Positions 20,955-55,694 of a stretch of 64,000 nt of DNA are shown in pieces; position 1 is the first letter of the stretch, and each line of letters starts with the position of its first letter. This DNA is from Cerasicoccus sp. TK19100 (GTDB lineage Bacteria; Verrucomicrobiota; Verrucomicrobiia; Opitutales; Cerasicoccaceae): assembly GCF_027257155.1 (NCBI RefSeq), contig NZ_JAPWDU010000006.1:1-64000 (forward strand), in the 5' to 3' direction. The notes beneath the pieces are model-generated. The model saw nothing but the letters and a program-made list of their open reading frames with translations, was not told where the DNA came from and did no database searches. The position numbers were made by a program, and so were the translations under genes.

Positions 20955-20960
20955 GTGGTT

Positions 20961-21049
20961 TAGTTGGGAGTTGTGAGTTTCGAGTTCCCGCCGGTCTGAT
21001 TTCAGTTCTTTAAAAACTCCCAACTCGTAACTCGAGACTCCCAACTAAA
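20961..21049. repeat. Heptad-word inverted arms after rpoC
   Basis: The left arm is TAGTTGG, GAGTTGT, GAGTTTC, GAGTTCC in exact 7-base steps (20961-20988). The right arm (21013-21049), read on the reverse strand, is TAGTTGG, GAGTCTC, GAGTTAC, GAGTTGG, GAGTTTT. The loop is about 24 bases. It uses the same words as the site at 55583-55694. Confidence 0.8.
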
Positions 21050-36360: not shown

Positions 36361-36511
36361 TGGAGTGCGCCAGAGGACTGGCGTTATCGGATTTTTCGTA
36401 TGCCTGAGTAGTTGCCCTGGGTAATCCAACACAGGCTGCGTTAGGCTGGATTCATTGCGGTGTAGCCGTTGGCGCAAAATGCTCAAAGCGCCAGAGGGCT
36501 GGCGCACTCCA
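36361..36511. repeat. REPIN: paired REP sequences related to the RAYT flanks
   Basis: TGGAGTGCGCCAG...CTGGCG at 36361-36383 and its inverted partner GCGCCAG...CTGGCGCACTCCA at 36488-36511. Each is a hairpin with a short loop. They are the same REP as the copies flanking the RAYT gene at 41 kb, making a 151-bp REP doublet. Confidence 0.75.
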
Positions 36512-38747: not shown

Positions 38748-40838
38748 TTATTGACGCCGCAGATCGATTGTCCAGGTAGACTCCGGGGCAGTTTGTGCGA
38801 TTGCCGGATGCTTAATGACGGCGGGCTGGCTGAGGGGAACCCAGCGGGCTTGACGGCGGTGGTTTGCCTCGCTGTCAGTAGTGGGTAAGCCGTCGTATAG
38901 CGGGCCTTCGGGGTTCCAATAATGGTAGAGCGCGGCGGTGGTTTCCTTGCCCGTTTGCCACTGAATGGTGAGCGGAGATTGGATCAACACATGCGGGTGC
39001 AGTGCCGGATAAGCGCTAGCGCACTTGTAGCGCAGACCGATGACTGGCTGCCCGCCAACGTGCTGCCACGGGAGGGCAACGCCGTTGATCATTAGTTGGC
39101 CCATTGCCGCGAGCTTGGGGTCGCTGAGGGTAAACTCGAGCCGATCCGTGGAGTTATCCACCACGCGAACCGTTGACGCGCCCTGACTTTCCTCGGCCAT
39201 GAGCGGCCAGGCTTCGAAGGCTTGGCGGACGGTTAACTCGCCGCCGGGGATGCTCAGTTTACCAACGACGGGACACCGGAAATCGATCACCGGGCGCAGC
39301 CATTCCGGATCGTAGTCGATACCGGCCTTTTGTATATCGACGCAAATTTTTTCCAGATCCTCCAGCAGCATAGATGGCAGGAAATAGCGGTCGTGCAACT
39401 TCGGGCCGAAGCGGCGTAGCTTCTTGCGAAACGGCCGCTTGATGAGCATAGCGATGATGGCGCGAATGAAGAGCGATACGTTGGCCATCATTTCGGCGGT
39501 GGGCAGCGTCTCGAACGCGCGTAGCTCGACGATGCCAAGCTTACCCGTGGGCGATGAGAAATTCCAAAATTTATCCAGGCAGATTTCCGCGCGGTGAGTG
39601 TTGCCAGCGGCATCGGTCAGCAGGTTGCGGAAGAACTGGTCGAGCATTTCGGGCGAGGGCAGGTAGGAAAGTTTTTCCAAGCCTTCGCAGGCAGACTCGA
39701 GCTCGTAGAGCAGGTGCTCGGCACCTTCGTCGATGCGGGGTGCCTGGCAACCAGCTCCGACATACTGGCCGGTGAACAGATACGACAGCGCCGGGTGATG
39801 CTGCCAGTAGCGCAGAATGGAGGTAAGCAAAGTGGGCTCGTTGAAGAAGACATTCTCCTCTGGTGTGGGGCCGCCGAAGGCCAGATGTGAGCCGCCGCCG
39901 GTGCCGCGGATCGTGCCATTGAGGCTTCGCTTGGTGAGGTATAATCCAACGCGGTGCGCTGCCTCGGAGATCGCGCAAAAGGTGGCGTTGTATTCCTGCC
40001 AGGTCGATGCCGGCGGGAGGTTAACCTCCAGTACGCCGGGGTCCGCCGCGAGGCCGAGGCCGGTGGTTTCGCCGTTCGTGTTAAAGGGTGCATAGCCGCA
40101 GATGACGAGGTCGCGCAGGTCGAGCTTGACGCTCAGTGCTTCGAGCGTGGAGATCATCTGCTGAAAACCATGCCAGTCCAGCGGTGGCAGGAAGATTTCC
40201 AGCGCGCCGTTGCGGACCTCGATCGTGAGCGCGCGCTTAATGGCGTCGTCGGGCAGGTCACTCAGCGGCAGACGCAGGCCGATCGGGCTGTCTCCGGGAA
40301 TGAGGGGGACGGGGTGTGCGCGGTCAAAGGGCCAGGGTTTACTTTGCCATGCAGAGTTTTCGTAATCCAGTGGCAACACCCATCCGATGGTCTTCTTTTT
40401 CGCACCTTGCTCAGCGGCGGGTATGGGGGCGTTATCGATCGCCAATTGCTCGATCATGGCGCGCATGACGCGGGAGGCCTGAGCGGGCTGGTTGCGCCCG
40501 GCTTTGTCACCGAGTAAAAATCGCTTGGGCTCCGTCCAGAGATCACCATTCGCTTTGCGTTGCAAAGTTAACAGGTTCCAGCGAGGCAGTGGTTCTCCAG
40601 GATAGAGCTTGCCGAAGACCTGCATCACGAGACCGCCTTTGAAATGTGAGTGCAGAAGCTTGCCGGTGAGCTTTCGGGCAAAGCCGAGTTTTTCCGGGCC
40701 CATGGCGTCGTTATTCCACTCCGCGCCGGTGGGCATGTTGGGGACAAAGGTGGGCTCGCCGCCCATGGTCAGCGTTATACCTCGCTTGTCGAGGAGTGTT
40801 TCAATTTGTGCGGCGCAGTCGGTAGGTGTGTGGCTCAA
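38748..40838 (-). CDS. DUF2126 protein (transglutaminase-associated)
   Basis: A 696-residue cytoplasmic protein. ITLTMGGEPTFVPNMPTGAE (near residue 20), EKLGFARKLTGKLL and GLGLAADPGVLEVNLPPA with GTGGGSHLAFGGPTP (near 310) are landmarks of DUF2126, whose residues suggest a glutamine-synthetase-related fold by published analysis of amidoligases. In many genomes DUF2126 is the C-terminal half of a protein that starts with a transglutaminase domain. Here the two are separate genes, with a RAYT gene between them. Expected to act with the ATP-grasp/alpha-E protein; substrate unknown. Confidence 0.85.
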   Translation of the reverse strand: MSHTPTDCAAQIETLLDKRGITLTMGGEPTFVPNMPTGAEWNNDAMGPEKLGFARKLTGKLLHSHFKGGLVMQVFGKLYPGEPLPRWNLLTLQRKANGDLWTEPKRFLLGDKAGRNQPAQASRVMRAMIEQLAIDNAPIPAAEQGAKKKTIGWVLPLDYENSAWQSKPWPFDRAHPVPLIPGDSPIGLRLPLSDLPDDAIKRALTIEVRNGALEIFLPPLDWHGFQQMISTLEALSVKLDLRDLVICGYAPFNTNGETTGLGLAADPGVLEVNLPPASTWQEYNATFCAISEAAHRVGLYLTKRSLNGTIRGTGGGSHLAFGGPTPEENVFFNEPTLLTSILRYWQHHPALSYLFTGQYVGAGCQAPRIDEGAEHLLYELESACEGLEKLSYLPSPEMLDQFFRNLLTDAAGNTHRAEICLDKFWNFSSPTGKLGIVELRAFETLPTAEMMANVSLFIRAIIAMLIKRPFRKKLRRFGPKLHDRYFLPSMLLEDLEKICVDIQKAGIDYDPEWLRPVIDFRCPVVGKLSIPGGELTVRQAFEAWPLMAEESQGASTVRVVDNSTDRLEFTLSDPKLAAMGQLMINGVALPWQHVGGQPVIGLRYKCASAYPALHPHVLIQSPLTIQWQTGKETTAALYHYWNPEGPLYDGLPTTDSEANHRRQARWVPLSQPAVIKHPAIAQTAPESTWTIDLRRQ
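40553..40568. repeat. Dispersed palindrome copy inside the DUF2126 gene
   Basis: CTTTGCGTTGCAAAGT lies in the DUF2126 coding region and matches the ACTTTGCAAYRCAAAGT set. Confidence 0.5.
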
Positions 40839-40907
40839 TGGCGGTGGTGGTTGTGGGTTTTATGATGAAGGAACGAGAAGTTTTAGAATCTTGCGGTGGA
40901 ATGGCTA

Positions 40908-40939
40908 TGGAGTGCGCCAGCCCTCTGGCGCTTTAGCAT
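40908..40939. repeat. REP copy flanking the RAYT gene, downstream side
   Basis: A 32-base sequence whose core is a GCGCCAG-CCCT-CTGGCGC hairpin. It is an exact reverse complement of 41547-41578. Confidence 0.85.
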
Positions 40940-40969
40940 CTTCAGTAGAATGAATCGTGCCAACAAGCA

Positions 40970-41527
40970 TCATCTTGTTACTTCGAAGTTATCATCGACA
41001 GTTACTTGGTCGGTCGCGATTTCGTAAATCGTGCGTATCATCTCCTTGTCGGCTGTTGATTCAAACCAGGGGGCTGAGCACCAGGCATACTGGTTGGCGA
41101 CACGGACAAGCCCATGTTTTACCGCATTCTGATGAACGTAGTTTAATCGCGCCAAATATGATTTCTGATAAGTCAGGCGGGTTTCGCGAAAATTGTGCCA
41201 GACTTTGCGACCGCTTTCTCTATCAAGCTGGTTCACCCATGATGCTGTCTTTGCATGCAGCGTTCTCAACATGGCTGAAAGGGTGGCTGGATCCAACGGT
41301 GACTGAGCGACGAAATGATAATGATTCGAAAATACCGCCCATGCTTCAAGGTGCCAACCGTAATCATGTGTCAGTTTTAACAAGCCTCGCTGAAGCACAT
41401 CAAGTCTCTTTGAGTCTGCGAAAAAGTGCTGCTTGCGATAAGTTGCCGCTGTTACGAAATACGCACCTCGTTCTGTTAGCCTATGAACGGGAGCGTGGGG
41501 CCAGTTTATCTCCGGTTTGGAGGGCAT
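40970..41527 (-). mobile_element. RAYT (REP-associated tyrosine transposase) gene
   Basis: A 185-residue Y1-type transposase of the TnpA-REP family. The metal-binding motif is NHYHFV (H69, H71) and the catalytic tyrosine is in LNYVHQNAVKHGL (Y130). The N-terminal YFVTAATYRKQHFF is typical of the family. RAYTs handle single-stranded REP hairpins and are domesticated rather than freely transposing. It is flanked by a perfect 32-bp inverted pair of REP sequences (40908-40939 and 41547-41578), with another REP doublet at 36.4 kb. It sits inside the ATP-grasp/transglutaminase cluster, between the second transglutaminase and DUF2126, in the same orientation. Confidence 0.88.
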
Positions 41528-41546
41528 GATTCTTGTTTTGCGGAAA

Positions 41547-41578
41547 ATGCTAAAGCGCCAGAGGGCTGGCGCACTCCA
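41547..41578. repeat. REP copy flanking the RAYT gene, upstream side
   Basis: An exact reverse complement of 40908-40939, 20 bases upstream of the RAYT start. Together they bracket the gene. Confidence 0.85.
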
Positions 41579-41652
41579 TATCGTAGCTTTGCTCTTTGCA
41601 ACAATTTGAGTTAACGGAGGAAATAGTTGTTTAATTGCAGCCAGTCAGAGCT

Positions 41653-42549
41653 TCACACCTCTTCCAGACTCAGTGCGATTGCCATTTGCGAAGTGACGGG
41701 CTCGCCGCCTTTGACGAAGAATTTTCCCTGAATCGGGTTTACGCACTTGGGCTCGTGGGCGACGGCGGAAGGGATGAAATATTCGTTGGTCAAAATGCCG
41801 TTGGTTGGATCGAAGCCTTTCCAGCCGGCACCGGGCAGGAAGACTTCCGCCCAGGCGTGCATTGAGCCAACGGCGCGATTAAAAAGGTGTTCCTCGCCGT
41901 TGGCGGTGTTGGCCGGCGGGTCGAAAAGGTAGCCGCTCACGAAGCGCGAGGCCAAGCCAAGGTGGCGGCAGGCGGCGATGAAGAGCACGGCCATATCGCG
42001 GCAAGAGCCGAGGCGTAGCTCCAGGGTTTCGTTGGGGGATTGCACGCCTTCTTCGTCACGGCGCGAGTAGGCGATATCGCGGTGAATGGCTTGGTTGATC
42101 CCGGAGAGAAATTGCACGATGTCGTGGTGGTGGTTTACGTCGGGAATCGCCAGGTAAAGCCAGTCTAGCACCTTGTGGCTGTGCGGGATGATCGCCGGGT
42201 CGAGGTAAGGCGACAGCGCGTGCGCCTCGTGCGGAAGGTAACGAAACGGATAGGTCGTTGCATAGGGCTCAAGAATGAAGTCGAACGGGTTATCCTGTTC
42301 GACATCGATCAGCATTCTGCAGTGGAAATCGATCTGTGGCGTCTCCTGTAAGCCAAAGTTTGCGACGAGGACGATGTTGTTATTGCAGTCACGCACCCAG
42401 CGTTGTTTCGACTCAATTGACGTCGTCAAATCAAAGGATTCGACGCGGATTTTATGGCTGTCGCGGGGGCGAAGAAACAGGTGGTGCTCGCTGAAGCTGA
42501 CAGGCTTCGAGTATTGGTAACTGGTTCGATGATCGATGGAAATTCTCAC
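41653..42549 (-). CDS. Transglutaminase-like protein (second of pair)
   Basis: A 298-residue protein of the transglutaminase/cysteine-protease superfamily with the N-terminal beta domain typical of the bacterial group. The catalytic triad is in view: C183 in LGSCRDMAVLF, H231 in MHAWAEVFLPG and D247 in GFDPTNG. The GTG start overlaps the TGA of the upstream transglutaminase, so the two are translationally coupled. It is paralogous but only moderately similar to its neighbour. In such clusters these enzymes are thought to act as peptidases or amidases on peptide-linked products of the ATP-grasp enzyme. Confidence 0.88.
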   Translation of the reverse strand: MRISIDHRTSYQYSKPVSFSEHHLFLRPRDSHKIRVESFDLTTSIESKQRWVRDCNNNIVLVANFGLQETPQIDFHCRMLIDVEQDNPFDFILEPYATTYPFRYLPHEAHALSPYLDPAIIPHSHKVLDWLYLAIPDVNHHHDIVQFLSGINQAIHRDIAYSRRDEEGVQSPNETLELRLGSCRDMAVLFIAACRHLGLASRFVSGYLFDPPANTANGEEHLFNRAVGSMHAWAEVFLPGAGWKGFDPTNGILTNEYFIPSAVAHEPKCVNPIQGKFFVKGGEPVTSQMAIALSLEEV

Positions 42550-46272: not shown

Positions 46273-46426
46273 TAGAGCACTTTCACTTTAAGTAGTCCGC
46301 TCAGGTGGGAGCTCAAATGAATGCAGCGGAAGGCGGAGCCGATTGAGCCCGCTTTGCTCCTCGCGCCTTGATGAACACACAAAATCACAACGGCCTGAAC
46401 AGACTATTTAAAGTGAAAGTGCTCTA
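46273..46426. mobile_element. MITE-like element with 25-36-bp terminal inverted repeats
   Basis: The ends TAGAGCACTTTCACTTTAA...GTC (46273-46297) and its complement (46402-46426) match at 24 of 25 positions, and the match continues more weakly to about 36 bases (GTC then CTCAGG/TTCAGG). The 154-bp element has no coding capacity. It lies in the 408-bp gap upstream of the ATP-grasp gene, which otherwise holds nothing I can name. No clear target duplication beyond TA is visible. Confidence 0.65.
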
Positions 46427-53531: not shown

Positions 53532-53597
53532 CCTTGCGCCTTGCTAGGACGCTAAAAATCACTGCGGCCTGATTGGCCAAGCTCGATGGAAAGTGCT

Positions 53598-54602
53598 CTA
53601 GATGCTTGATTTCCGCACGACGAGTTCGGGGGCCAGCTTGAGGGATTCGACCGGTTCGCCTTCCATGAGCTTTTCGAGCATATCCACGGCGAGGCGGCCA
53701 CGCTGAGCGAATTTCTGGTCGATACTGGTCAGTGGCACGCTGCAAGTTTCGCAGAAGGGGGAATTGTCGATACCGGTGATTTTGACATCGCCCGGGATGC
53801 TGACACCGCGGCTGAGCAGCTCATTGATCGCGTAAACGGCCTGGGTGTCGGACTGCGCACAAATGCCGTCAATTTCGACCCCCGATTCGAGCGCACCGAT
53901 GAGCGCGCCACGGGCGGTGGAGCCGTAAAAGCCCTCCTGGCCGTGGGGCATGCCAAAAATGAGGCGTTCGTTGACGGGGCGGCCGGCTTCCTCCAAGGCG
54001 CGGCGGTAGCCATTGGTGCGCTGCGGCATGGTGTCGAAGGTGGCGATGCTTTCGCAGCCCTGCTCGATCAAGTGCTTGGTGCTGAGGTAGGTCGTGTTCT
54101 CTTCGATCAGGCCGACGTTGGGGATCTTTTCATGGATCGGGTTGCTGAAAGTGCTGACGAGCTTCAGGCCTTCCTTTTGTAGCTTAAGCAACTCGGGGAC
54201 CGCCTCAATGTGGTAAACGCCGCTGAGCACAACGCCGTCGACCATGCCGGTGTGCAGGTCTTGCAGGCGCTGAATGTAGTCGTCATATTCGGTGACGAAG
54301 TTGAGCATCATGCGCAGGTTGTGTTTGTGCGCAGACTCCGCCATCCCTTCCAGGGTGTCTTCGGTGATCGTGGCCCCCTTGGAGCCGATGCGATGCAGAA
54401 AGACGCTGATGGCACCCTGGCGCTTGGCCAGGAGGGCGATCGAGTTAAAATTCCGCTTATAGCCGAGCTCTTCGGCTTTGGCCTTAATGGCTTCGATCAG
54501 TTCCTTGCGGGCACCGGTGGTGCCCAGCTTGTCGTTGATGACTTTGGAAACGAGGGATACGGAAACGCCGACTTCGTCAGCAATATCTTTCAGGCTGGCC
54601 AT
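53598..54602 (-). CDS. LacI-family transcriptional regulator
   Basis: A 334-residue LacI regulator. The N-terminal helix-turn-helix is SLKDIADEVGVSVSLVSKVINDKLG (residues 3-27). The ligand domain includes LVSTFSNPIHEKIPNVGL, YRRALEEAGRPVNERLIFG and PGDVKITGIDNSPFCETCSVPLTSIDQ. It represses or activates a sugar-use operon, but no target gene is adjacent. It is followed on the chromosome by an unrelated membrane gene. The last bases overlap GAAAGTGCTCTAG, which matches one end of the MITE-like element at 46 kb. Confidence 0.9.
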   Translation of the reverse strand: MASLKDIADEVGVSVSLVSKVINDKLGTTGARKELIEAIKAKAEELGYKRNFNSIALLAKRQGAISVFLHRIGSKGATITEDTLEGMAESAHKHNLRMMLNFVTEYDDYIQRLQDLHTGMVDGVVLSGVYHIEAVPELLKLQKEGLKLVSTFSNPIHEKIPNVGLIEENTTYLSTKHLIEQGCESIATFDTMPQRTNGYRRALEEAGRPVNERLIFGMPHGQEGFYGSTARGALIGALESGVEIDGICAQSDTQAVYAINELLSRGVSIPGDVKITGIDNSPFCETCSVPLTSIDQKFAQRGRLAVDMLEKLMEGEPVESLKLAPELVVRKSSI

Positions 54603-55582: not shown

Positions 55583-55694
55583 TAGTTACGACTTCTCAGT
55601 TACGCGTGCTGAGTTTCGAGTTGCGCGTTGGAAAGCGAGAGCAGAGCTACCTCTTCAATGCGCAACTCGTAACTCGAAACTCACCAACTGATAC
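55583..55694. repeat. Heptad-word inverted arms before the GPP34 gene
   Basis: The left arm is seven heptads in a row from 55583: TAGTTAC, GACTTCT, CAGTTAC, GCGTGCT, GAGTTTC, GAGTTGC, GCGTTGG. The right arm (55660-55694), read in reverse, has CAGTTGG, TGAGTTTC, GAGTTAC, GAGTTGC. The GAGTT words match those after rpoC. The loop is about 28 bases. Confidence 0.82.

Follow-up and report, generated by a model that had tools for sequence, protein, structure and literature searches.

RAYTs have been described as single-copy, vertically inherited genes that do not copy themselves. The closest described systems are the REPtrons of E. coli, Pseudomonas, and Stenotrophomonas, in which one gene encoding a TnpA-REP protein of the HUH/Tyr type lies beside REPs and inverted pairs of REPs (REPINs) are dispersed. 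The published REP foot is GT[AG]G, with some variants (PMC3116915, PMC6006769, PMC3733652, PMC8266576, PMC2817692). REP families are also described in the same phylum (Verrucomicrobia), as the GTAG repeats of Opitutus terrae (PMC3733652).

The locus analysed here lies in a 64,000-nt stretch of DNA from Cerasicoccus sp. TK19100 (the window) and shares with these systems the HUH/Tyr protein, the one gene beside REPs, and the dispersed inverted REP pairs. Its REPs have perfect 7-bp stems and the foot GGAG (GGAG or GGAC in the family), in contrast to the GT[AG]G foot of the E. coli, Pseudomonas, and Stenotrophomonas REPtrons (PMC6006769) and the GTAG/GTGG foot printed for O. terrae (PMC3733652). 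This GGAG/GGAC-foot system is a new form of the REP-RAYT system. GGAG as the start of a word was not found in PMC3733652, PMC8266576, or PMC2817692, and neither GGAG/GGAC REPs nor a deletion scar of a RAYT was found in literature titles and abstracts outside subscription journals and preprints. With this foot one could also test a published rule by which the cleavage dinucleotide depends on the foot (PMC8266576); under that rule CT would go with a foot ending in AG and GT with one ending in AC.

The RAYT site and its gene boundary

The TK19100 site is a minimal REPtron, in which one RAYT is flanked on both sides by single REPs oriented as in a REPIN; it is located between genes in a co-directional cluster. 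The relevant features of the window are as follows.

36362-36510, no strand assigned: REPIN formed by two inverted REPs, the left arm having the loop AGGA and an altered 3' end
38748-40838, minus strand: short, unfused DUF2126 gene, 696 aa
40906-40939, plus strand: downstream REP of the RAYT, whose GGAG foot is at 40909 and whose inner tail is TTTAGCAT
40921-41561, no strand assigned: 641-nt stretch whose removal yields the exact C. maritimus palindrome, with 8 equivalent junctions arising from the 7-nt GCGCCAG repeat
40970-41527, minus strand: RAYT gene, 185 aa, HUH motif NHYH at residues 68-71, inferred catalytic Tyr130 with Asn134
41547-41580, minus strand: upstream REP of the RAYT, an exact inverted copy of the downstream one, with its GGAG foot at 41577
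41653-42549, minus strand: transglutaminase gene, 298 aa, upstream neighbour of the RAYT

A first-pass annotation had described the RAYT as bracketed by perfect inverted REPs of 32 bp. The bracketing and the exactness hold, since TATGGAGTGCGCCAGCCCTCTGGCGCTTTAGCAT (40906-40939) is the exact reverse complement of 41547-41580 and both belong to a family that is repeated across the genome; the length measured is 34 bp, and under looser matching the arms extend to 45 nt at 91%. Both REPs read TAT-GGAG-T-hairpin-TTTAGCAT, where the hairpin is GCGCCAG-CCCT-CTGGCGC, as earlier described, with a stem of 7 bp and the loop CCCT. Folded as single-stranded DNA, it reaches -9.4 kcal/mol (z -3.27). The ends of the RAYT open reading frame are 30 and 19 nt from the REPs.

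The predicted protein scores 82.3 bits against the REP-associated tyrosine transposase model NF047646, barely above the cut-off of 80, and 25.7 bits against Pfam Y1_Tnp (cut-off 23); its best solved chain is 4er8, a TnpA-REP (E 8.7e-05). Residues N68, H69, H71, Y130, and N134 are kept in all 63 aligned relatives, and the HUH motif and the catalytic tyrosine would have the role described for them in RAYTs (PMC6006769). By printed motif signature alone, the protein resembles TnpAY1 subclass 2.8 (PMC6006769, Table 1) in NHYH, in a W followed by H (W[YH]), and in Y-x-H-x-N; that subclass, in contrast, comes from Cyanobacteria and has canonical GT[AG]G feet (PMC6006769). Judging from its family, the RAYT would be a single-strand HUH/Tyr nuclease that reads the REP foot and hairpin and copies or moves REPINs in trans, and it would act in this way on these GGAG REPs.

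The first-pass annotation had proposed that the RAYT either split a once-fused transglutaminase-DUF2126 gene or settled in a gene boundary. The second proposal agrees with the position of the unit between the two genes, both of which are full length. A split is very improbable. A fused form does exist, also within TK19100, where the long DUF2126 protein (1168 aa, G000:C5) is fused to transglutaminase domains by Pfam; this protein, however, is an intact second paralog. Long DUF2126 proteins occur in 7 of the 54 genomes searched, and the fusion was read by Pfam in that of TK19100 alone. The short form (about 696 aa) is present in 12 of these 54 besides TK19100 and is unfused in every one. Ten of the 12 have their own transglutaminase gene directly upstream, across a gap of roughly 0-180 nt, its product 52-85% identical to that of TK19100; in G030 and G048 no transglutaminase was found within the 1.5 kb read. 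These separate genes argue that the RAYT split no gene, and the split was rejected. Relatives lacking the RAYT and having the same separate genes, equally spaced and with no junction scar, had been named as the finding that would refute the earlier reading; the separate genes were found, but so was a scar, in C. maritimus.

REPs and REPINs across the TK19100 genome

With up to three mismatches, the REP pattern has 47 and 48 matches on the two strands of the whole genome versus 4 and 7 for the reversed pattern, counts in which one hairpin may score twice, by both of its faces. The dispersed matches are thus not due to chance, and 28 of them are free of any mismatch. When the search was confined to the 64-kb window and to the hairpin, with three mismatches allowed, matches were no commoner than in shuffled sequence (10 versus 9.7), but the exact ones are the REPs of the RAYT family. 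Loci resembling REPs were read, and three-mismatch matches resembling chance were omitted. The genome-wide count that had been suggested as a check gave 45 REPs, which form 19 dispersed inverted pairs with short spacers (REPINs, 117-149 nt), the RAYT pair, and 5 others. The foot is GGAG in the two REPs of the RAYT and in nearly all of the genomic REPs read, so that they are not canonical REPs with a GT[AG]G foot 5' of the hairpin.

The additional REPs noted earlier near 36.4 kb are present as one REPIN with one arm changed. In that left arm (36362-36384) the loop is inverted, as a template switch within the hairpin would give. Whole REPINs are duplicated in tandem at two loci, L013 (G000:C4:151690-152155) and L016 (G000:C4:321849-322265), about 328 and 289 nt apart, respectively.

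The genome encodes seven other Y1_Tnp proteins, none less than 1.5 kb from any match to the REP pattern; six of the seven genes were read with 1.5-kb flanks, and single GGAG[CT]GC words occur near some. One RAYT thus accompanies this REP family, as a single close match in the genome, and it is apparently the sole RAYT there to adjoin such REPs, which bears on the earlier suggestion to check that only this RAYT is cognate. Scored against a position matrix built from other REPs, the inner ends of the RAYT unit were equalled by 0.05% and by none of 20,000 random window segments, and the outer ends by 0.29% and by none. Both ends are therefore REPIN-like inside and outside the hairpins, and the RAYT occupies the place of a REPIN spacer.

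Relatives of the RAYT and their REPs

Relatives of the RAYT are present at E <= 1e-15 in 58 of 384 genomes of the class and at E <= 1e-30 in 42 of 387 genomes of the phylum, two samples that overlap. Sixty-four RAYT loci were read, namely the best 62 class matches (E <= 1.2e-42, TK19100 included) together with G049 and G026; 15 weaker matches were left unread. In the RAYT tree, which has 63 rows and good support at 21 of 60 inner branches, host families are intermingled, a pattern suggestive of transfer and loss. Both flanks are shared only by G160 and G257, which are of the same genus, so that no conserved position is apparent among the 64 loci. Two plasmid records match the RAYT at 21-22% identity, and no phage record does.

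REPs number 115 in the 62 kb beside other RAYTs versus 9 in 83 kb farther out, and perfect 7-bp hairpins with any foot number 293 faces within 500 nt of RAYTs (62 kb) versus 39 in the 83 kb farther out. The commonest feet are GGAGT, on 62 faces at 23 RAYTs, and GGACT, on 59 faces at 20 RAYTs; GTAG or GTGG is the foot of a single face. When 6 of 7 stem pairs were allowed, 49 of the 64 RAYTs had REPs (27 with GGAG only, 11 with GGAC only, 11 with both) and 15 had none; at one of the 49 loci, L157, the hairpin is unlike the rest and may be due to chance. Stems show paired changes across 60 genome/stem combinations: pair 4 is G-C in 47, C-G in 12, and T-A in 1, and pair 6 is G-C in 43 and A-T in 15. 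The stem table was limited to stems with a GGAG foot and a GC start, and its first two pairs are therefore uninformative. In the scan behind that table, REPIN-RAYT-REPIN was the layout at 6 of 36 RAYTs and one REP on each side at 4 of 36. No double-foot REP was found within about 1.5 kb of the 64 RAYTs.

A link between RAYT residues and the G or C of the foot was also considered, using 46 of the 49 REP loci, with L129, which is missing from the alignment, and the tied L143 and L188 left aside. The best raw association was at position 45 (p 9e-07). At residue 111, which aligns with the Q that follows W in E. coli, 19 of 29 GGAG rows have H, against 2 of 17 GGAC rows. The link fails on the tree, where there are 9 foot changes and 6 independent pairs and no sign test reaches 0.05.

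The orthologous site in Cerasicoccus maritimus

Three congeners were compared, C. maritimus (G003), C. frondis (G001), and C. arenae (G002). No close RAYT was found in any of the three: the top match is 27% identical in C. frondis (E 3e-8) and 28% identical over 74 residues in C. maritimus (E 1.1e-4), and C. arenae gave no match. Pfam detects no Y1_Tnp in C. maritimus beyond two short frames (125 and 55 aa). Its genome is a draft of about 70 contigs, 97% complete, and since contigs C9 and C43 start near REPs, a RAYT may lie in a gap. The 44 REP faces of C. maritimus form 18 pairs, 6 singles, and one palindrome read on both strands, a count that leaves out 8 unread three-mismatch matches. C. 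frondis has one one-mismatch REP, at a site in common with a TK19100 REPIN, plus weaker matches; C. arenae has one match, at three mismatches; and the RAYT site holds no REP in either species. Four REPIN sites are common to TK19100 and C. maritimus, with spacers 51-74% identical, which indicates that the REP family is older than the split of the two. A clean empty target was sought in the congeners with the flanks of three REPIN loci, and none was found: the L001 spacer was too diverged from all three genomes, and the other two loci gave one-sided alignment at the matching place.

In C. maritimus, the ortholog of the RAYT site holds a perfect 34-nt palindrome, which is letter for letter what a 641-nt deletion between the GCGCCAG repeats in the window's REP pair would leave. 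The spacers flanking the site align on both sides, imperfectly. This palindrome is the sole double-foot REP among the REP matches with up to three mismatches in both genomes. With a foot at either end, it has the form that a central deletion between inverted REPs should produce, like the double-foot REPs of subclass 2.4 and the palindromes from REPIN collapse (PMC6006769); what differs in Cerasicoccus is that both states, RAYT pair and palindrome, are seen at one orthologous site. Pseudomonas REPIN excisions leave a different end (PMC3116915).

For the history of the site, we give about even chances to a unit bounded by REPs and bearing the RAYT having been present at this boundary before TK19100 and C. 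maritimus split, with its middle then deleted in C. maritimus. The deletion would have run between the hairpins, from one 7-nt GCGCCAG repeat to the other, and would have left C. maritimus with a double-foot palindrome and a REPIN population and with no cognate RAYT. Slipped-strand deletion between the hairpins would be enough for the junction; excision by the RAYT would be possible but unneeded. Loss of the unit is favored because the palindrome is the predicted junction between aligning spacers and is the only double-foot REP, because C. maritimus has no close RAYT yet has 18 REPINs, because the inner and outer ends of the RAYT unit score like REPIN ends, and because REPs are far denser beside other RAYTs. 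Against it, the C. maritimus genome is a draft in which a RAYT may lie in a gap, few RAYTs have the layout with single REPs on both sides, and a REPtron would not be expected to transpose as a unit (PMC6006769).

The same junction and flanks would result if the ancestor had been a plain REPIN that collapsed in C. maritimus to the double-foot palindrome, the RAYT having entered in the TK19100 lineage, and one-REP palindromes are expected from plain REPIN collapse (PMC3116915, PMC6006769). This history is possible but rather unlikely: the gaps of 30 and 19 nt between the REPs and the open reading frame are shorter than the usual REPIN spacer here, so that the RAYT would have had to enter almost bare, and RAYTs of this family commonly have REPs (39 of 64, or 49 of 64 with either foot). 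Loss of a RAYT-bearing unit and collapse of a plain REPIN both fit the site. An older palindrome into which the RAYT unit inserted in the TK19100 lineage is improbable. The junction is reversible in principle, but the insert must then carry matching half-REPs on both sides to give two complete REPs with REPIN-like inner tails, and there is no other double-foot REP in the two genomes or within 1.5 kb of the 64 RAYTs. We infer the direction of change at this site, as well as the content of the C. maritimus gap.

Extending the loss of a RAYT-bearing unit beyond this site, we tentatively suggest, at somewhat less than even chances, that a RAYT bracketed by single REPs is a REPIN-ended unit gained and lost whole, that REPINs are its internally deleted derivatives, that the C. 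maritimus palindrome is a fossil of such a loss, and that this RAYT lineage extends across the Verrucomicrobiota with a GGA[GC] guide foot that has switched several times between G and C. In a published model of REPIN persistence, RAYT loss and gain appear only in an elementary appendix (PMC8049555). The C. maritimus footprint is a natural case for asking what becomes of repeats once the driver gene is gone. The four Cerasicoccus species look like a natural series, from a RAYT with many REPs (TK19100), through no close RAYT with many intact REPs and a scar (C. maritimus) and no close RAYT with a REP remnant (C. frondis), to almost nothing (C. arenae), which makes the fate of a repeat family after loss of its driver testable.

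Other repeats were seen in these genomes. A second, purine-rich repeat of the GGAAAAAGATTAAAGGAAAAAG type forms inverted pairs around REPINs in C. maritimus, TK19100, and C. frondis (L101:1859-1892 and 2079-2110, L029, and L124), with many further matches in TK19100. Five identical three-mismatch matches in C. maritimus (CGAGTGCGCCTGGCGCCTGGTGC, at C3:42497, C8:9188, C12:12867, C13:74764, and C40:6208) perhaps represent another repeated element. In the window, a MITE-like repeat at 46273-46426 has 33-nt inverted ends (TAGAGCACTTTC...) 88 nt apart, with a related copy at 53555-53601 and matches in two C. frondis loci. At 20959-21049 and 55607-55686 lie two short inverted repeats that resemble each other (GAGTTTCGAGTT ... 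AACTCGTAACTCG type), and an inverted repeat at 2244-2372 has 36-nt arms that are 97% complementary and 57 nt apart.
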